Assembly: GCA_017936565.1 (NCBI GenBank)
Contig: JAGBFG010000004.1
Location: 1-61,313, forward strand
Direction of reading: 5' to 3'
Length of the DNA stretch: 61,313 bases
Source: Clostridia bacterium
GTDB lineage: Bacteria; Bacillota; Clostridia; Oscillospirales; CAG-272
Made by a program: the position numbers and the translations under genes
The notes under the pieces: generated by a model
Databases searched by the model: none
The model's input: the letters and a program-made list of their open reading frames with translations, nothing else
Told to the model about the DNA's origin: nothing
Shown here: one piece after another, positions 29,147 to 43,440 of the stretch
Position numbering within the stretch: the stretch's first letter is position 1
Layout: every line of letters starts with the position of its first letter

Positions 29147-29175
29147 TTGACGAAGAAGGAATGTTGTGCTATACT
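29147..29175 (+). promoter_or_regulatory. SigA promoter of the mgtE leader
   Basis: TTGACG (29147-29152), 17 bp, TATACT (29170-29175). The transcript has about 175 nt before the mgtE ATG. Confidence 0.85.
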
Positions 29176-29229: not shown

Positions 29230-29310
29230 ATGGATTACGCAGACAGTAAATGCGACGATAGCGGTAATGGCCGATTATGGCAGGCATTTTTGCCGTGTCC
29301 GACCGTATAA
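29230..29310 (+). CDS. Putative leader peptide of mgtE (26 residues, Asp-rich start)
   Basis: ATG at 29230 has AAAGGAA 8 nt upstream; stop TAA at 29308-29310, 47 nt before the mgtE ATG. The peptide begins MDYADSKCDDSGN and ends in a segment with two prolines (LPCPTV). It is the first reading frame in the transcript. I find no M-box riboswitch here. Asp/Pro-rich leader peptides sense low Mg2+ upstream of Salmonella mgtA; this one could act alike, but that is inference. The CNNM/CorC gene has a similar leader (41994-42083). Confidence 0.55.
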   Translation: MDYADSKCDDSGNGRLWQAFLPCPTV

Positions 29311-29357
29311 TTGCCGCGCGCATTTGCCTCTTTATTATCCACGGAGGAGGTATTGCT

Positions 29358-30758
29358 ATGGCAGAAGAAACAAAAGAAATACAAGAGCTTGAAGAAAGAG
29401 ATCTGGCAGAAGAGGTCTTAACGCTTCTCAAAGAAAAAAGGTTTTCGGCGCTTCGTGAGATGATAGCCATGCTGCCCTCGGCAGACATCGGCGTTTTGTT
29501 CTCGGAAATTCCCACGGAGTATCACCGCCTTTTTTATCGCCTGCTTCCCAAGGAGTATGCGGCGGAAATCTTTGTGGAAATGGATTATGATGCCCAAGAA
29601 AGTCTGATTTCTTCCTTTTCCGACGGCGAATTGCAGGAAATTCTCAACGAGCTGTTTTTGGATGATACAGCAGATATCATCGAAGAAATGCCCGCGGGTG
29701 TCGTGGCGCGTATACTGAAAAACTCCTCTCCTGAGGCGCGCCGTGACTTAAATATGCTTTTGCGCTATCCCCGTGACAGCGCGGGCAGCATTATGACCAC
29801 CGAGTTTGTGGCGCTGAAAAAGAATATGACGGTGGACCAGGCGTTTCGCATCATTCGTCAGGTCGCCATTGATAAGGAAACGATTTACACCTGCTACATC
29901 ACGGATGAAAACCGCCGTCTTATCGGCGTTATTTCCGCCAAAACCCTGCTGATTTCCCCCTTGGACGCGGTTCTGGGGGATATTATGGATGACCGTGTCA
30001 TTTTTGTTCAAACACATACCGACAGGGAAGAGGCGGCGCGTAAATTTAATAAATACGACTTTCTGGCGTTGCCTGTGGTGGACAACGAGGAGCGCTTGGT
30101 CGGTATCATTACGGTTGACGACGCTATTGACGTTATCCAAGAGGAGCAAGAAGAGGACTTCTCCATTATGGCGGCTATCACCCCCGCGGAAACCTCTTAT
30201 GTCAAGTCCTCGGTGTGGAGTCTTTGGTCGGCGCGCATCCCTTGGCTTTTGATTTTAACGCTGACTGCCACCTTCACGGGAATGATTATTACGGGCTTTG
30301 AAAACGCCTTGAAGGTGTGTGTCGCCTTAACTGCCTTTATCCCGATGCTGATGGGAACAGGCGGTAATGCGGGCAGCCAAGCCTCAACTACCATTGTTCG
30401 CGGTCTTTCCTTGGGCGAAATTGAAACGGCGGATATATGGCACGTTCTCTGGAAGGAGCTGCGGGTTTCCCTGCTTTGCGCGGTATCCTTGGCAGCTGTC
30501 ACCTTTGGAAAGGTGATGCTGATTGACCGCCTTCTTTTGAACAACCCCGATGTTACCCTGTCCGTTGCTGCCGTGGTAGCGGCGACGCTTGCCTTAACCG
30601 TGGTCTGCGCCAAGCTTCTTGGCTGCTCCTTGCCACTTTTGGCAAAGAAAATAGGGCTTGACCCTGCGGTGATGGCAAACCCCTTTATCACCACCGTGGT
30701 GGATACGGTATCCCTGCTGTTATATTTCTTAATTGCGAAAAGCCTTTTGGGCATTTGA
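29358..30758 (+). CDS. mgtE: Magnesium transporter MgtE
   Basis: 466 residues. N-terminal superhelical MgtE_N domain (LEERDLAEEVLTLLKEKRF onward), two CBS domains (about 130-260) that gate the pore by binding Mg2+, and a C-terminal five-helix membrane domain with the pore segment MGTGGNAGSQASTT. It imports Mg2+ at the plasma membrane. GGAGGAGG lies 7-8 nt before ATG 29358. Preceded by a leader with a short reading frame; an LRR protein follows after 50 nt. Confidence 0.96.
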   Translation: MAEETKEIQELEERDLAEEVLTLLKEKRFSALREMIAMLPSADIGVLFSEIPTEYHRLFYRLLPKEYAAEIFVEMDYDAQESLISSFSDGELQEILNELFLDDTADIIEEMPAGVVARILKNSSPEARRDLNMLLRYPRDSAGSIMTTEFVALKKNMTVDQAFRIIRQVAIDKETIYTCYITDENRRLIGVISAKTLLISPLDAVLGDIMDDRVIFVQTHTDREEAARKFNKYDFLALPVVDNEERLVGIITVDDAIDVIQEEQEEDFSIMAAITPAETSYVKSSVWSLWSARIPWLLILTLTATFTGMIITGFENALKVCVALTAFIPMLMGTGGNAGSQASTTIVRGLSLGEIETADIWHVLWKELRVSLLCAVSLAAVTFGKVMLIDRLLLNNPDVTLSVAAVVAATLALTVVCAKLLGCSLPLLAKKIGLDPAVMANPFITTVVDTVSLLLYFLIAKSLLGI

Positions 30759-31890: not shown

Positions 31891-31990
31891 GTCCGCAGAC
31901 ATTTCACTCGCCGTAGGCGAATTTCACGCGCGGAGCGTATTTCACAAATCCCGCAAGGGATTTATTTCATTGCGTGCGCTTTCAGCGCAA
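31891..31990. repeat. Mini-hairpin array B, hairpins separated by ATTTCAC
   Basis: GTC-CGCA-GAC (31891-31900), ATTTCAC, TCGCC-GTA-GGCGA (31908-31920), ATTTCAC, ACGC-GCGGA-GCGT (31926-31938), ATTTCAC, AAATCCC-GCAA-GGGATTT (31946-31963), ATTTCA, TGCGCT-TTC-AGCGCA (31975-31989). The stems differ from one another; only the spacers are conserved. It begins 5 nt after the yebC stop on the yebC transcript. Confidence 0.85.
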
Positions 31991-36785: not shown

Positions 36786-38360
36786 TTGATTGTAGTCAGT
36801 AATTTGAGCTTTCATTTCGGGGGGCAGCTGCTCTTCAAGGACGTGGATTTGCAATTTACGGGTGGCAACTGCTATGGTATTATCGGCGCCAACGGCGCAG
36901 GAAAATCCACCTTTCTCAAGCTGCTTTGCGGCGAGCTTGAGCCATCTACGGGCGGGGTTTCCATTTTGCCCGGCTCTCGCCTTTCTGTTTTGCGGCAGGA
37001 CCACTTCGCCTTTGATGCGGAAACGGTCCTTGACACCATTTTAGCGGGAAACGAACGGCTTTTCTCTATTATGAAGGAGAAGGACGCCCTTTATCAAAAG
37101 GAAGATTTCAGCGAAGAGGACGGTATCAGAGCCTCGGAATTAGAGGGCGAATTTGCCGAAATGAACGGCTGGGAGGCTGAATCGGACGCGGCAAAATTAT
37201 TGGAAGGACTTGGTCTTTCGGACGCTTTGCTGTATACCCTGATGGGAGAATTGACCGAGGCTGAAAAAATCAAGGTGCTTTTAGCCCGCGCGCTTTTTGG
37301 CAACCCCGATATTATTCTGCTTGACGAGCCTACCAACGGCTTGGATATTGACGCGGTTCTTTGGTTAGAAGACTTTTTGGCTGATTATTTTGGTACGGTT
37401 TTGGTGGTTTCTCACGACAGACACTTTCTCAACGATGTCTGCACCAATATTGTGGACATCGATTACGGAAGTATTAAAATGTATGTGGGTAACTACGAGT
37501 TCTGGTATGAATCAAGCCAGCTCATTCAGCGTATGCTGAAACAGCAAAACAAGAAGAACGAGGAGAAAATTAAGGAGCTGCAAGCCTTTATCTCTCGTTT
37601 CTCCGCCAACAAATCCAAATCCCGACAGGCGACCTCTCGCCGAAAGCTGCTTGAAAAAATTTCCATTGAGGAAATGCCCGCCTCTTCCCGCCGCTATCCC
37701 TTTATCGGCTTTGATATGGATAGGGAAGCGGGAAAGGATATTTTGCGCGTAGATGGGCTTTCCAAGGAAGGCTTTTTCAGAAACGTCACCTTTACGGTCA
37801 ACAAGGGCGATAAAATCGCCTTTTTGGGCAACGAGCTTGCCATTACCGCGCTTTTCCGCACCTTGATGGAAGAAACAGAGGCAGACAGCGGCGAATTCAA
37901 GTGGGGCGTCAGCATCACGACCTCGTATTTCCCTCACGATAACACCCCCTATTTCGCCGATTGCGAGGATAGCATCATCGATTGGATGCGCCGCTATTCC
38001 AAGGATCAGACGGAAACGTATCTGCGCGGCTTTTTGGGCAGAATGCTCTTTTCGGGGGACAGCGTGTTTAAGCCTGTTCGCGTGCTGTCGGGCGGCGAGA
38101 AGGTGCGTTGTATGTTTTCCCGTATGATGCTGTATGGCTCTAACGTGCTTTTGTTAGATCAGCCCACCGACCATCTGGATTTGGAATCCATTACCGCGGT
38201 TAACAACGGTCTTGCCGATTTTAAGGGCAACGTGCTGTTTTATACCCATGACTATGAAATGATGAACACCGTTGCCAATCGCATCATTGAAATTTTGCCC
38301 GATGGTATTCGGGATTTTGACGGAACATATGAAGAGTATCTGGCAAAAACAAACGCGTGA
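36786..38360 (+). CDS. ABC-F family ATPase (YbiT/YkpA-like) with one degenerate ATP site
   Basis: 524 residues, tandem ABC domains and no membrane helices; ABC-F proteins act on ribosomes. Domain 1 has Walker A GANGAGKST (34-42) and Walker B LLDEPTNGLD, but its signature reads LTEAEK rather than LSGGE. Domain 2 has a good signature LSGGEKVRC, but its Walker A region reads GNELAITAL without the lysine and its Walker B reads LLDQPTDHLD with Gln for the catalytic Glu. So the site built from Walker A1 plus signature 2 looks intact, the other dead. TTG start with AAGGAG 8 nt upstream. Confidence 0.88.
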   Translation: MIVVSNLSFHFGGQLLFKDVDLQFTGGNCYGIIGANGAGKSTFLKLLCGELEPSTGGVSILPGSRLSVLRQDHFAFDAETVLDTILAGNERLFSIMKEKDALYQKEDFSEEDGIRASELEGEFAEMNGWEAESDAAKLLEGLGLSDALLYTLMGELTEAEKIKVLLARALFGNPDIILLDEPTNGLDIDAVLWLEDFLADYFGTVLVVSHDRHFLNDVCTNIVDIDYGSIKMYVGNYEFWYESSQLIQRMLKQQNKKNEEKIKELQAFISRFSANKSKSRQATSRRKLLEKISIEEMPASSRRYPFIGFDMDREAGKDILRVDGLSKEGFFRNVTFTVNKGDKIAFLGNELAITALFRTLMEETEADSGEFKWGVSITTSYFPHDNTPYFADCEDSIIDWMRRYSKDQTETYLRGFLGRMLFSGDSVFKPVRVLSGGEKVRCMFSRMMLYGSNVLLLDQPTDHLDLESITAVNNGLADFKGNVLFYTHDYEMMNTVANRIIEILPDGIRDFDGTYEEYLAKTNA

Positions 38361-38409
38361 CAACACGTGACAAAGGAATACTTTATAATAGAAAGGAATG
38401 TTTTATAAA

Positions 38410-39138
38410 ATGAGCAACGAAACTTTGTGGCAGGTGATTGGCTTCAATCTTCCCCAAGAATGCTGGGAGTGGCTTGTGCGCATTTTGGTTGCCACGCTTT
38501 GTGGCGCCTTGATAGGACTTGAACGCGGCATCAGACAAAAGGAAGCCGGCATTCGTACCCATTGTATTGTGGCAATGGCGGCTGCTATATTTATGATTAT
38601 CTCCAAATACGCTTTCTTTGATCTGCATTTCACCGAAGGGGAGCTTCTGCTTGGCACAAAAGGGGCAGACCCCTCGCGTATCGCTTCCCAAGCGGTCAGC
38701 GCCGTCGGTTTTTTGGGTGCGGGCATCATTTTCAAGGGCAAGGGCGCGGTCAAGGGCTTAACCACAGCTGCGGGTATTTGGGCAACGGCTGCCATCGGTT
38801 TAAGCATTGGGGCAGGGCTGTATACCATCGGCGTCGCTTCGGCTATCCTTCTTTTGCTTGTAAACATTTGCTTGCATAGATGGCTCATCAGATTGGAATC
38901 TATGTCTACCAGCGAATTTTCCTTTTTGATGGAAGACGAGCCTGAGGTTTTGGATCACTTGCGACAGCAGCTGGATGACCGCAAAATCCAAGTACAAAGC
39001 TTGGATATCAAGAAGCAGGAAACAGGGCTTTTGCAGGTGCGTATTGTGGCGCGTATTGCCAAAAACGCGGCGCTGAATGATTTTCTGCTGTTTATCAACG
39101 ATAACCCCAGTATCCGCAATTTTACAGTACAGGTGTAG
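38410..39138 (+). CDS. MgtC/SapB-family membrane protein
   Basis: 242 residues. Four to five N-terminal helices with the family block CGALIGLERGIRQKEAGIRTH and SAVGFLGAGIIFK...GLTTAAGIWATAAIG, then a cytoplasmic ACT-like C-terminal domain (about 165-242). Family members are linked to growth at low Mg2+ and to regulation of ATP synthase in pathogens; the role here is unknown, but mgtE and a CNNM/CorC gene are near. ATG 38410 is preferred over 38398, which abuts the Shine-Dalgarno. Confidence 0.88.
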   Translation: MSNETLWQVIGFNLPQECWEWLVRILVATLCGALIGLERGIRQKEAGIRTHCIVAMAAAIFMIISKYAFFDLHFTEGELLLGTKGADPSRIASQAVSAVGFLGAGIIFKGKGAVKGLTTAAGIWATAAIGLSIGAGLYTIGVASAILLLLVNICLHRWLIRLESMSTSEFSFLMEDEPEVLDHLRQQLDDRKIQVQSLDIKKQETGLLQVRIVARIAKNAALNDFLLFINDNPSIRNFTVQV

Positions 39139-39203: not shown

Positions 39204-40559
39204 TTATGCAATGGGAGAAATTTTAATCAGTACGGTGGAATAAATGGGAAGGGAAAGATAGAGGGCAAAGTCCTTGGCGGTGAAGATTTCTTCCGCAACC
39301 AAGGTCTTGGAATGATCGCCGTCGAGCAGATACCGTTCCACCTTGATCTTGCCAGAATGGGGGATGTTATTGCACTCTATTTTCACGTTTTGAACGGGGG
39401 CCTCGTCATCGTCCTTGTAGTAGGAAAGGAAAACGGCGCTTTCTTCGCCATTTGTGGCGGCGCAGGAGTAAAGTCCGTTTTCGTGGTCCTGCTTTGAGGG
39501 AACGTGTGTGCCGTGAGCCGCAATATCCTTGAACATCAGATAGGTGTAATAGGTCTTTAAGGGTTCAAGGGTTGTGGAGTCAAACAGTCCGTTCATTCCG
39601 CTCGGACGTGCGTCATAGTACATCAGCATATCCAAGGGCGACGCCTGCCCGACGCACATAGCAGAAGCCGCAAAGGAAGAGCCCTTCAAGCCCTTTTCAG
39701 AGGCAAGAGAATATTTCCAATCCTCTCCTGCCCATCCTCTGATATAGTTCCATTCGTTCAAAACGGTTTCCTTGTCAGCGGCGCCGTGCTCCGTAAAGAA
39801 GCGCTTGGCTTCATAAATGGTGGCTTCAAAATCCTGCATGGTCTTCCCATACCAATGGTAAGAATAAAAGTCGGCGGGAAGGTTGCGTCTTAAAATGTCG
39901 GCATATATTTTTCTCGAATGCTCTGCCCACATAGAAGCCATCGCGGGACCCCCTATCTTCAAATGGGGGAATTTTTCTTTCAGGTGGCGAAGCACAACCT
40001 CGAAGAAGTTGGGAAACTCCATCTCATCTCCCTGCCAGCAGGGATTGCTTCCGTCGCCGTTGTGGCAGTCGGGCTCGTTCCAGATTTCCCAATAGGTGAT
40101 GTCATAATGAAAGCCGTCAGCCCATCCTTCTGTGTAGTGGCGGATGATATGCTCGCAAATTCTTGCCCACTTTTCATAGTCCTTGGGGGGATAGGTGCCG
40201 TATTTTTCACCGTGCTCAATGCCTGCGCCCAGACGGTAAAAGGTTTTTGTTCCCGCATCGTGAATGTTCCTCAAATATGTATCGGTGGAACGGAAGGAGT
40301 AAGAAGCGGGGGCGTTCTCGTCTGCCTCGAAATTGCGGAAAATGCGGTGAACGTCTACGGTGAATTCACCGCCGTATCCGCTGTAAAAGGCGGAGTCGTG
40401 CGTGCGCGCAAAGGGAAACGCCGCTTCCGCATAGGTAGCGAAATTGCCCGCGTTTTTGCGAACGGCAGAGCCGGCGGGGCCGTTATTTACCGCATTCATA
40501 GGCTTTATTTTTTCACCGCTTTGGGCAAAATCAAAGGAAACAGGAATAGCGCTTGTCAT
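39204..40559 (-). CDS. GH39-like glycoside hydrolase (beta-xylosidase type)
   Basis: 451 residues, clan A TIM barrel. WEIWNEPD carries the acid/base Glu162 and VLNEWNYI the nucleophile Glu269, the GH39 arrangement. No signal peptide, so it would act on imported oligosaccharides. Substrate could be xylo-oligosaccharides or other glycosides. Begins 14 nt after the CNNM/CorC gene in the same direction, although no functional link is evident. Confidence 0.8.
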   Translation of the reverse strand: MTSAIPVSFDFAQSGEKIKPMNAVNNGPAGSAVRKNAGNFATYAEAAFPFARTHDSAFYSGYGGEFTVDVHRIFRNFEADENAPASYSFRSTDTYLRNIHDAGTKTFYRLGAGIEHGEKYGTYPPKDYEKWARICEHIIRHYTEGWADGFHYDITYWEIWNEPDCHNGDGSNPCWQGDEMEFPNFFEVVLRHLKEKFPHLKIGGPAMASMWAEHSRKIYADILRRNLPADFYSYHWYGKTMQDFEATIYEAKRFFTEHGAADKETVLNEWNYIRGWAGEDWKYSLASEKGLKGSSFAASAMCVGQASPLDMLMYYDARPSGMNGLFDSTTLEPLKTYYTYLMFKDIAAHGTHVPSKQDHENGLYSCAATNGEESAVFLSYYKDDDEAPVQNVKIECNNIPHSGKIKVERYLLDGDHSKTLVAEEIFTAKDFALYLSLPIYSTVLIKISPIA

Positions 40560-40573
40560 AATGGCACCTCGTT

Positions 40574-41875
40574 TTAATCTTCTTCGGATTTTTTGAACAG
40601 ACGAAAATGCTTATCTTCTTCCGCTTCCTCGTCCTTTTCTTCGGGAAGAATGGTAATTTGCGCCTTGGCTACACGCCGCTCATCTGTTAAAAGCAATGTC
40701 ACAGAGAGGTTTCCGTCCACAAAGCTGTCGCCTTCACTTGGCAAGGTTCCCAGCTTCTCCATAACCCAACCGGTCACGGTATTGTCCTCGTCGCTTTCAA
40801 TGCCGAAGGTTTCGCAAAATTCGTTCCAGTTGACGCCGCCGTCGACGCGGTATGTGTTTTCGTCAATTTTAGTGATGGTTTCTACAACCTCATCGTGTTC
40901 ATCCCAAATTTCACCAACAAGCTCTTCCAAAATGTCTTCCATCGTGACAATGCCGAGTGTGCCGCCATAATTGTCGCCTATAACGGCAATGTGGGATTGG
41001 CTCTTTTGAAGCATACGGAGAAGAACGCTGATTTTCATAGACTTGGGAACGAAAACAGGCTCAGTCATAATTTCTTCCAAGGGCAAGGGGGAAACACCCG
41101 TACCCGTATAGAAATCCTTTTGGTGAATGACGCCCACAATCGTGTCAATGCTTTCCTTGTATACCAGAATACGGGAATAGCGGGTGTCTGTAAAGACGGA
41201 AGCAACCTCTTCCTTGGTCGCTTCAACAGAAACCGCTTCAAGCTCAACGCGAGGGGTCAGAATGCTCTCAACATCAAGGTCGGTAAATTCCAAGGCGTTA
41301 TGCAAGAGCTTGCCCTCTTCCTCGTCGATGCCGCCCTCTTCCGTCACCTCTTCTACCAAGACCAGCAATTCGTCTTGTGTGAGAGTGCGGCTCTCGTTGC
41401 TTTTGAAAACAAGGGAAAGCAGCTTCTTCCAAAGCGAGAAAAACGCCACAAAGGGAAAAAGCAAAATCATAAAGAAGCGGATGAAGGGCGTTGCAATGAT
41501 GGCAAAGCGCTCGGGCGACTCCTTGGCAATGGTTTTGGGCGAGATTTCACCGAAAATCAAAACCACCACCGTCATCACAACGGTAGAAAGCGTAGTTCCG
41601 AGACCTTCCTCAAATTGCAACAACTGCACGAACAAAATGGTGGCCAAAGAAGCAGAGGCAATATTGACAATGTTATTGTCAATCAAAATGGTAGACAAAA
41701 GGCGGTCGTATTTTTCAGACAGAGCCAAAGCGCGCTCCGCTCCGTGAGAGCCCTTTTCCGCCATCGTCTTCAAACGGGTTTTGTTCAGCGACGAAAAGGC
41801 GGTTTCCGACGCCGAAAAAAATGCTGAAAAGAAAACAAGCAGCACGATGATAAGTACTGTGCTCGGGATAGACAT
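40574..41875 (-). CDS. CNNM/CorC-family (HlyC/CorC) transporter-associated protein
   Basis: 433 residues. N-terminal CNNM membrane domain (SIPSTVLIIVLLVFFSAFFSASETAFSSLN, about three to four helices), a CBS-pair domain (about 195-320; LTPRVELEAVSVEATKEE), and the C-terminal CorC_HlyC domain (YRVDGGVNWNEFCETFG). Family members export Mg2+ or control its efflux. ATG 41875 has AGGAG 8 nt upstream. The 240-nt leader holds a short reading frame and a terminator, suggesting attenuation. A palindrome GCCGCCTTGGCGGC (41894-41907) lies before the Shine-Dalgarno. Confidence 0.9.
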   Translation of the reverse strand: MSIPSTVLIIVLLVFFSAFFSASETAFSSLNKTRLKTMAEKGSHGAERALALSEKYDRLLSTILIDNNIVNIASASLATILFVQLLQFEEGLGTTLSTVVMTVVVLIFGEISPKTIAKESPERFAIIATPFIRFFMILLFPFVAFFSLWKKLLSLVFKSNESRTLTQDELLVLVEEVTEEGGIDEEEGKLLHNALEFTDLDVESILTPRVELEAVSVEATKEEVASVFTDTRYSRILVYKESIDTIVGVIHQKDFYTGTGVSPLPLEEIMTEPVFVPKSMKISVLLRMLQKSQSHIAVIGDNYGGTLGIVTMEDILEELVGEIWDEHDEVVETITKIDENTYRVDGGVNWNEFCETFGIESDEDNTVTGWVMEKLGTLPSEGDSFVDGNLSVTLLLTDERRVAKAQITILPEEKDEEAEEDKHFRLFKKSEED

Positions 41876-41942: not shown

Positions 41943-41992
41943 TGCAAAAAGGCATACCCCTCTGCCCATATACGAGCGAGGGAGATGCCTTA
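41943..41992 (-). terminator. Intrinsic terminator inside the CNNM/CorC leader (putative attenuator)
   Basis: Leftward AAGGCAT-C-TCCCTC ... GAGGGG-TATGCCTT then TTTTGCAGTTTTTGCC. The 5' arm starts 2-3 nt after the stop of the leader reading frame, so a ribosome at that stop would cover its base. It lies more than 60 nt before the structural gene, so it must be bypassed for expression. Confidence 0.75.
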
Positions 41993-41993
41993 C

Positions 41994-42083
41994 TTATGAA
42001 AGATATGCATATAAATAGACGGCCTTTGCCGAAATCAAAAACATATTCGTGTTACAATCCGTATCACTACTGTCCGCGTCCAT
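41994..42083 (-). CDS. Putative leader peptide of the CNNM/CorC gene (29 residues, Asp-rich start)
   Basis: ATG at 42083 has AAGGTGAG about 9 nt upstream and lies about 30 nt after the expected transcript start. It begins MDADSSDTDCNTN, four Asp in nine residues, and ends with an aromatic, hydrophobic YLYAYLS; stop TAA 41994-41996. A terminator follows at once. The N-terminus resembles the mgtE leader (MDYADSKCDDSGN). A Mg2+-sensing leader peptide is inferred. Confidence 0.55.
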   Translation of the reverse strand: MDADSSDTDCNTNMFLISAKAVYLYAYLS

Positions 42084-42121
42084 GTTGTGACTCTCACCTT
42101 CCTTCGATAGTATTCTATATT

Positions 42122-42150
42122 ATTATACAGGATATTCGCCGTTCTGTCAA
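42122..42150 (-). promoter_or_regulatory. SigA promoter of the CNNM/CorC leader
   Basis: Leftward TTGACA (42145-42150), 17 bp, TATAAT (42122-42127). Confidence 0.92.
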
Positions 42151-42215: not shown

Positions 42216-43109
42216 TTATATTTCCTCTGCGGTAATGGTGCCGTCCTTTACAAGCAGGCGGCAAATGCGCGCGATACGCTCAGCGCCCTCTTTTCTGTCG
42301 CGCCCGTGATAAATAGCGTAATACTCGCCCTTCCACTTGATAACGCTGTGATGCCCAACGCCCTCTTCCGTTTCCGTCTGGAACAGAACGGGATTGAAAA
42401 CGCCGTCCTTGCCCGTTATCTTCTCAAAGGTGATATTGGTGAGGTCGCTTTCCGTCGTCTTTGCCACGGCGTAGCCAATATGATAGGTATCGTTCTGATA
42501 GCAGCCGCCACTATACATCAGGTAGTGATAGTCACCCTCCTTGAAATAGAAGGGACCCTCTATGGTGTGCCATTGGCGCGTCTCGCCTTCCTTATACTTG
42601 AAGATTTCTTCGTCAATGGTGGGCACTATCAGCTCACGGCAAAGATTGGCGGGCGTGTCAGGTGAGAGAAGTCTGTCAACAAACACTCTTGTGCCAATCC
42701 GTTCTCCCTCATCGTTATTCTCCGCGTAAAACAAAAACAAGCCGTTTTCGTTCTGTACCGCGTGGGAGTCGATGGAAAAGCGGTCATAGAGCTGCTTTTT
42801 GAAGGTGAACGGACCGAGCGGGCTTTTTGCTTCCGCTACCAGCATATATTCCTCAAATTCGTCCAAGGGGTTGCAGGAAACGTACATATAATAAGTATCG
42901 CCCAACCGAATGACGCTGGGCGCCCAGAATTCCACGCGGTTTTCCATAGAAAAGACGATGCCCTCGTCCTCAAACAAACCAAAAAGATCATCGCCCGAAA
43001 AAGCCTTGACCCCCAAATGCCCCGTGACGTATATGTAAAGACGCCCCTCATCCTCAAAAATAAAGGGATCTGCCTTTTCGCTGTACATATCCTCAAAGCG
43101 TAACTTCAT
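42216..43109 (-). CDS. GH43-like glycoside hydrolase
   Basis: 297 residues, five-bladed beta-propeller. ADPFIF has the general-base Asp, IDSHAVQNENGLF the pKa-modulating Asp and IEGPFYFKEGDYHYLMYSGG the general-acid Glu. GH43 enzymes cleave arabinosyl or xylosyl units. Cytosolic, since no signal peptide remains with the start at 43109 (GGAGAAGG just upstream); an apparently hydrophobic in-frame extension upstream is translated A/T-rich intergenic DNA. With the GH39 gene it hints at hemicellulose-derived sugar use. Confidence 0.82.
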   Translation of the reverse strand: MKLRFEDMYSEKADPFIFEDEGRLYIYVTGHLGVKAFSGDDLFGLFEDEGIVFSMENRVEFWAPSVIRLGDTYYMYVSCNPLDEFEEYMLVAEAKSPLGPFTFKKQLYDRFSIDSHAVQNENGLFLFYAENNDEGERIGTRVFVDRLLSPDTPANLCRELIVPTIDEEIFKYKEGETRQWHTIEGPFYFKEGDYHYLMYSGGCYQNDTYHIGYAVAKTTESDLTNITFEKITGKDGVFNPVLFQTETEEGVGHHSVIKWKGEYYAIYHGRDRKEGAERIARICRLLVKDGTITAEEI

Positions 43110-43440
43110 ACCTTCTCCATTCTGCCAAGCTGTTTTTAGCGTCTTGCAAGAAGCGCCAAGATTATGTCGCCGGCATCGTTTTTTATCAGTATAACAGAAA
43201 GAAGGAAAGAAAGCAAGAGAAAAAAAGAAAAAAACAGTAAATAATGTGCAGAAAAAAATTTTAAATAATATAAGGAAAAGAAAAAGTTTTGTTTTCTTTC
43301 GGACTGTCAAAGCCGCTGCTTGCCTCTCGCGCTCTGCGCTGTAAAGCAAAAGAGCAAGCGAAAAAATAGCACAAATTCACAAAAGAGTGCTAAAAAACAG
43401 GTGAAAAAGGCAGAAAATGCGGCAAAAATATCTAAAAATA
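43110..43440. other. A-rich intergenic region
   Basis: Low-complexity region between GH43 and the hsp20 control region. Apart from a lone CIRCE half-site GAGTGCTAA (43385-43393) I see no gene or RNA. Confidence 0.5.

Follow-up and report, generated by a model that had tools for sequence, protein, structure and literature searches.

Acidic leader peptides before CNNM and mgtE genes of Clostridia as candidate translated sensors in the control of Mg2+ transporters

A short Asp-rich ORF stands between a promoter and an intrinsic terminator upstream of a CNNM/CorC gene in the 61,313-nucleotide stretch of Clostridia bacterium DNA analysed here (contig JAGBFG010000004.1, the window), and a similar ORF precedes mgtE. 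Is this layout found beyond one contig, is it tied to Mg2+ transporter genes, and how might it work? The first-pass annotation of the sequence had proposed a peptide-based Mg2+ regulon with transcription attenuation. The features of the CNNM locus are as follows:

42122..42150 (-): sigma-70 promoter of the CNNM transcript, TTGACA-17-TATAAT, matching 12/12 consensus positions
~42093..42105 (-): purine-rich Shine-Dalgarno sequence of the CNNM leader ORF, by eye (scripted score of L001, the window locus, 5/6)
41994..42083 (-): CNNM leader ORF, 29 codons and stop, MDADSSDTDCNTNMFLISAKAVYLYAYLS (start MDADSSDTDCNTN), from translation and relatives before CNNM
42045..42080 (-): codons 2-13 of the leader, acidic and small-residue segment, from composition by position in 73 leaders; putatively destabilising
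41946..41989 (-): intrinsic terminator, hairpin 41989-41951 followed by TTTTT 41950-41946, folded dG -22.3 kcal/mol
40574..41875 (-): CNNM/CorC gene (Pfam CNNM, CBS and CorC_HlyC), by homology a probable Mg2+ exporter

The consensus promoter and the 29-codon frame of the first-pass annotation are thus both present. A simple terminator scanner reported a weaker overlapping hairpin, 41965-41944, in place of 41989-41951. No Rfam family, M-box included, reached its gathering score in either window leader (CNNM or mgtE), and the top sub-threshold score was that of c-di-GMP-I on the opposite strand (17.1 bits, with 35 needed). The CNNM gene is flanked by genes at 39204-40559 (-) and 42216-43349 (-), whose translations give the impression of glycoside hydrolases.

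We collected 110 CNNM loci. Thirty came from the window's family (the best 30 of 58 places; 41/59 genomes of the family have a CNNM match), and 80 were the best of at least 524 places in named genome records, whose titles mostly refer to uncultured Clostridia, Oscillospiraceae and Lachnospiraceae, along with a few isolates. Leaders were listed automatically at 84/110 loci; 13 of these calls were removed by hand (L008, L011, L013, L016, L017, L020, L022, L023, L024, L036, L067, L089 and L095), and L067 and L088 were entered with a fitting ORF. The curated leaders therefore number 73/110, with 9/30 in the family set and 64/80 in the named-record set. Among them are the window (L001) and two or more contigs represented twice (L003/L076, L009/L102), and the first eight residues form 57 distinct strings. 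Counts over these related sequences are not independent. The other 37/110 loci, many of them remote paralogues, are without an accepted leader. The leaders start with MDSDSSD, MDGDSSDD, MDADSSED, MDSSDSSDDNGD, MDSCGSTDGGNPDN, MDDPSKRR, MDEPPR and similar strings. A terminator with dG <= -8 kcal/mol follows 62/73 of them, and under a stricter U-tract rule with dG below -8 we found terminators in 44/73, compared with 3/73 on the reverse strand. Thus, the Asp-rich leader with its attenuator layout before CNNM is real and reaches far beyond the window; the lack of conservation that the first-pass annotation had named as counter-evidence was not seen.

Furthermore, we searched for a strict micro-ORF (M[DE], at least three acidic residues in positions 2-9, and a Shine-Dalgarno sequence), a definition fixed after the leaders were seen. 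It occurred upstream of 40/93 CNNM relatives with at least 48% identity and in 0/93 of the same regions on the reverse strand; 20 approximate segment-swapping shuffles of these regions gave a mean of 2.5 and a maximum of 5. None was found in the 17 remoter CNNM loci. On the CNNM tree (quick search, no bootstrap) leader types group together, and the acid-proline type requires a minimum of three changes along branches with good support. Some leaderless CNNM proteins begin MEDPPR, MDGDSS, MDTDS, MDSDS or MDGDN (L042, L015, L012, L078 and L090), which recalls CorC of E. coli. Acidic starts of the CNNM protein itself are more frequent at leaderless than at leader-bearing loci (7/23 vs 5/73, Fisher 0.007), but a shift of the acidic stretch from leader to protein was not confirmed on phylogenetically independent pairs (median p 1).

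The tie to Mg2+ transporters was also seen in a leader-pattern search with no gene query. In 118 genomes of the family it gave 33 matches, compared with 6 for the reversed pattern, and 30 loci were examined. Nine of the 30 combine a good Shine-Dalgarno sequence with an ORF no longer than 75 aa; the next gene is CNNM in five of them (window included) and MgtE in four, and no amino-acid gene occurs among these good-site matches. Three more loci have a weaker site or longer frame, namely L122 (MgtE), L131 (remote CNNM) and L141 (a CNNM protein starting MDGDSS), and the other 18/30 have neither a good Shine-Dalgarno sequence nor a CNNM/MgtE gene. The pattern MDEPP[RS] gave five matches and five when reversed; four matches have a Shine-Dalgarno sequence by eye, and all four precede CNNM. 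In 291 class-level genomes a strict leader pattern was found in two places only, both upstream of CNNM. Meanwhile, the leader pattern was present at 0/10 CorA loci, where the weak micro-ORFs of L236 and L237 do not match it. The micro-frame search suggested by the first-pass annotation hence succeeded for CNNM (73/110) and MgtE (45/92) and failed for CorA. As for the Mg2+ regulon with attenuation that it had suggested, the leader common to two unrelated Mg2+ transporter genes and the terminator kept before CNNM speak for it, but CorA falls outside.

The leader before mgtE, which had been noted as similar in its N-terminus, is followed by a Pfam MgtE gene:

29147..29175 (+): promoter-like TTGACG-17-TATACT before the mgtE leader, by eye
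29230..29310 (+): mgtE leader ORF, 26 codons, ATG 29230, stop 29310, MDYADSKCDDSGNGRLWQAFLPCPTV, from translation
29325..29350 (+): TGCCTC and the mgtE Shine-Dalgarno sequence GGAGGAGG, possible pairing; Shine-Dalgarno pairing probability 1.00 in the local fold (L143), illustrative only
29358..30758 (+): mgtE gene (Pfam MgtE, MgtE_N and CBS)

The 92 MgtE regions comprise 90 found by MgtE similarity and two (L121, L132) found via the leader pattern, with the copies L117, L122 and L124 omitted; hence 2 of the 45 MgtE leaders entered via the pattern itself. A typical leader reads M[DE][AST]G[SN][SN]...GR. Gly-Arg or Asp-Arg occurs in 27 leaders, with Arg encoded by CGA in 24, and many have just one or two acidic residues. 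No M-box was found in 20 MgtE loci that lacked an automatic leader call, two of which (L146, L151) do carry a leader on inspection. The automatic choice of the mgtE start gave none in 4/45 and an implausible one in others, and the fold values derived from it are illustrative. For the duplex test, entries repeating the first 12 residues were removed (MgtE from 45 to 43, CNNM from 73 to 65). In MgtE leaders, early ORF RNA is more complementary to the downstream RNA than are its dinucleotide shuffles (mean z -1.16, 10/43 below -2); the window's own mgtE leader had a z of -0.1. As a group, the MgtE leaders fit a putative ORF-dependent alternative folding that would act on the mgtE ribosome-binding site or a terminator. 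A specific GGNCGA/TTGCC pairing was convincing by eye only (14/25, with a shuffle mean of 9.1 and a maximum of 14), and it was rejected.

In the 73 CNNM leaders, the fraction of small residues (S, G, A, N, T, C, P, D) is 0.79-0.99 over positions 2-11 but 0.32-0.52 over positions 14-26. Acidic residues average 3.5 in positions 2-11, and 73/73 leaders have at least two D/E there; residue 2 is a selection rule, and the leaders were chosen partly on acidity at positions 2-8, with positions 9-11 outside the selection. Both acid-rich and acid-proline starts occur, and the MDSC type has few acidic residues. The acidic segment ends at a median of residue 11, and conservation is limited to the first ~12 residues. 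The C-terminus is variable, and the whole length ranges from 13 to 65 aa with a median of 37. Since the N-terminus is kept while tail and length vary, the leaders are unlike an arrest peptide and look as expected of an effect on the short nascent chain. Furthermore, we found in them no conserved arrest motif far enough in to fill the tunnel, as in the SecM and TnaC type.

The position of the terminator is more regular than the length of the ORF. The 5' arm starts a median of 60 nt from the ATG (IQR 57-66, range 43-106, 46/62 within 50-70), and the SD of this distance is 12, compared with 32 for ORF length. In 62/62 cases the leader frame reaches a point no more than 15 nt from the 5' arm without a stop codon; the other two frames do so in 35 and 2. 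The stop codon falls before the hairpin in 5/62 leaders (including the window and L031, its nearest relative), inside it in 25/62 and beyond it in 32/62; the ORF thus runs into or through the hairpin in 57/62. The first-pass annotation had placed the terminator right after the stop. This is correct for the window, where the core stem begins 4 nt past the stop, or slightly nearer counting flanking A-U pairs, but it is not the general layout. Stem positions vary with pairing retained; the pairs were drawn from stability-chosen folds, and this is supportive only. The 11/73 leaders without a terminator at the threshold are mostly of the MDEPPR type, with 2/4 MDDPSK leaders.

The first-pass annotation had also supposed that early-aborting ribosomes and those reaching the stop would fold the terminator differently. 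For CNNM this part was not borne out. Complementarity between the early ORF and the 5' arm had a mean z of 0.17 against base-composition shuffles, with 1/62 below -2, and against dinucleotide-preserving shuffles complementarity with the downstream RNA had a mean z of -0.04, with 2/65 below -2. A trp-type attenuator was therefore rejected for the CNNM leaders, no competing antiterminator hairpin being detectable. The layout suggests instead that a ribosome beyond about codon 15 simply covers the terminator. A ribosome extends ~15 nt ahead of its P site. Thus, at about codon 15 it would begin to cover the 5' arm, just past the acidic segment.

Sequence comparison thus shows the ORF, the N-terminal constraint, the terminator, the geometry and the tie to CNNM/MgtE. 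On these grounds we consider it rather probable that translation of the CNNM leader senses early elongation, the likely cue being Mg2+, and that surviving ribosomes keep CNNM on; we infer that Mg2+ is sensed, that ribosomes drop off, and which way the control runs. Residues 2 to ~11 (acidic and small, or acidic and proline, often in rare codons) would anchor the short nascent chain poorly, so that ribosomes would tend to drop off at low Mg2+. At high Mg2+, a ribosome past about codon 15 would cover the 5' arm and leave the terminator unfolded, and RNA polymerase would then proceed into CNNM and the exporter would be on. At low Mg2+, an early-aborting ribosome would leave the terminator free and the exporter off; the outcome would be no different if the ribosome only stalled within the acidic stretch. 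The 11/73 leaders and 37/110 loci fall outside this model because the terminator or the leader is absent there, and MDEPPR-type leaders must act some other way, if at all. The race between ribosome and polymerase matters, and covering would need pausing or luck, because early terminators can be efficient and the polymerase is perhaps ahead. Ribosomes of Bacillus may lag behind RNA polymerase. For E. coli, terminators lying within the first 100 bp of coding sequence are described as potentially efficient (PMC4824070). Acid-rich starts are reported to destabilise elongating ribosomes, an effect that higher Mg2+ counters and a filled tunnel shields (PMC9718836), and acidic repeats, some with proline, are reported to be effective in roughly the first 30 residues (PMC11282234). 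In addition, corC and mgpA of Salmonella are described as induced by high Mg2+, the CorC N-terminus as destabilising, and CorB relatives as Mg2+ efflux transporters (PMC12421838).

Codon use bears on what is sensed. AGU makes up 86/140 Ser codons and CGA 17/20 Arg codons in codons 2-11 of the CNNM leaders, compared with 127/2065 and 54/987 in the matched CNNM genes. The MgtE leaders have the same preference (AGU 56/85 Ser, CGA 19/28 Arg), and 17 genes of the window use CGA for 9/320 Arg codons and AGT for 17/423 Ser codons. In the window this preference covers 42083-42051 and 29230-29262, codons 2-11 of both leaders. It counts against a peptide-only model, because such a model does not predict it. 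Slow decoding of AGU and CGA may lengthen the risky phase, and a constraint at the RNA level may be another source of the preference. The same rare codons would also suit a translated attenuator of this layout that senses a cue other than Mg2+, such as general early-elongation stress or the supply of the AGU/CGA tRNAs. We hold this unlikely: both targets are Mg2+ transporters, the good-site matches hold no amino-acid gene, and what the leaders share is acidic and small residues, beyond Ser and Arg.

It is also conceivable that the output is reversed, with ribosome stalling or release yielding CNNM at low Mg2+. A ribosome stalled near the terminator would cover it as well, and some MgtE leaders do show ORF-dependent alternative RNA pairing. 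However, the conserved segment stops at about residue 11, too early for a stalled ribosome to reach a terminator at +60, and the CNNM leaders have no antiterminator. Moreover, PMC12421838 describes CNNM relatives that serve Mg2+ efflux and whose expression is induced when Mg2+ is high. We regard the reversed output as quite improbable.

Equally doubtful is that the DNA encodes an RNA element, recognised by a protein, another RNA or a ligand, that happens to be readable as an ORF. The choice of AGU over AGC and of CGA over other Arg codons would suit such an element, as would codons 4-5, which are mostly GAC AGU. Yet synonymous codons are found spelling one peptide in different ways, quite different DNA (MDEPPR, MDDPSK) stands at the same place, the frame is open up to the terminator in all 62 cases, and Rfam gave no family at gathering score. 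A microprotein that functions as a product, for instance by binding the transporter, is very improbable: the ORF looks translated and adjoins its would-be partner, but neither sequence nor length is kept past about residue 12, and the tail often just codes for the terminator. Micro-ORFs are always present in intergenic DNA, but a chance ORF with an ordinary terminator is effectively excluded by the reverse-strand and shuffle controls, the geometry and the gene tie.

If the leader is a sensor of early elongation, the two transporter genes could be parts of one system. It is possible, and we propose it tentatively, that one kind of destabilising N-terminus written in AGU/CGA precedes both the importer MgtE and the probable exporter CNNM, with opposite wiring in the two cases, forming a Clostridia Mg2+ regulon. 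Before CNNM, surviving ribosomes would smother the terminator, and the gene would be on at high Mg2+. Before mgtE, loss of the ribosome would let the ORF RNA pair downstream and free the gene, which would be on at low Mg2+.

Ribosome destabilisation as a means of sensing Mg2+ is known in principle from enterobacteria, where it is described for MgtL, MgtQ and CorC. MgtL before mgtA has an acidic-proline EPDP start, and its transcriptional outcome is set by the loss of ribosomes when Mg2+ is low (PMC11282234). Like MgtL, the clostridial leaders are short ORFs with an acidic start before an Mg2+ transporter gene, and we liken them by layout. However, MgtL is Rho-dependent and activates an importer under low Mg2+, whereas the CNNM leader ORF overlaps an intrinsic terminator and precedes a probable exporter. 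In MgtQ of Salmonella mgtB, acidic residues 2 and 5 reduce its own translation, and alternative stem-loops free the ribosome-binding site of the transporter (PMC8092293); like MgtL, it is described as controlling an Mg2+ importer by destabilisation, which that report itself did not demonstrate. MgtQ resembles the MgtE leaders. It has 8 codons, lies within an operon and acts translationally, whereas by their layout the CNNM leaders would control transcription, and they lack an alternative stem. The CorC (YbeX) and YoaL systems of E. coli and Salmonella also involve CorC-family genes: in CorC the N-terminus is destabilising, and mgpA needs the leader peptide YoaL for its expression (PMC12421838). 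They differ in that the CorC destabiliser lies in the protein itself and the YoaL mechanism is unknown, and no intrinsic terminator is described for either in the available sections of PMC12421838.

The CNNM layout also resembles pyrL, in that the leader ORF runs in frame into an intrinsic terminator in 57/62 cases. In pyrBI, the pyrL ORF leads into an intrinsic terminator that a close-following ribosome blocks, the variable being RNA polymerase pausing on UTP. Here the targets are CNNM and MgtE with no pyrimidine-pathway gene, and the proposed variable is ribosome survival. Meanwhile, the M-box (ykoK), as the mgtE riboswitch is named, also controls mgtE from the leader, but it is an RNA sensor without an ORF. 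Bacillus mgtE is described as being under riboswitch control (PMC12288461).

We did not find the clostridial form of the leader described in the full-text literature searched (no preprints, few subscription journals). The main texts of three non-coding RNA surveys (PMC6429828, PMC8632094, PMC11109978) do not mention a CorC gene, and the sole mgtE motif that they name is from Thioalkalivibrio; the main text of a Staphylococcus aureus uORF survey mentions neither mgtE nor mpfA (PMC13009471). In the sources cited here, Mg2+ sensing by ribosome instability is described for a few enterobacterial genes; if our reading is right, it would be a common strategy in gut Clostridia, with one sensor and two outputs. 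The 73 CNNM and 45 MgtE leaders would then be a sequence-function set for ribosome destabilisers, including a candidate role of rare codons.

In addition, two other elements were observed in the window. An ABC-F type gene (ABC_tran, ABC_tran_Xtn) lies 37 nt before an MgtC gene (36786-39138, (+)). The E. coli ABC-F protein EttA is reported to act on the acidic MgtL leader (PMC11282234), and this gene may thus be linked to acidic leaders. Furthermore, a Gut-1 RNA (RF01706) was found at 31896-31972 (-), with 72.2 bits against a gathering score of 50.
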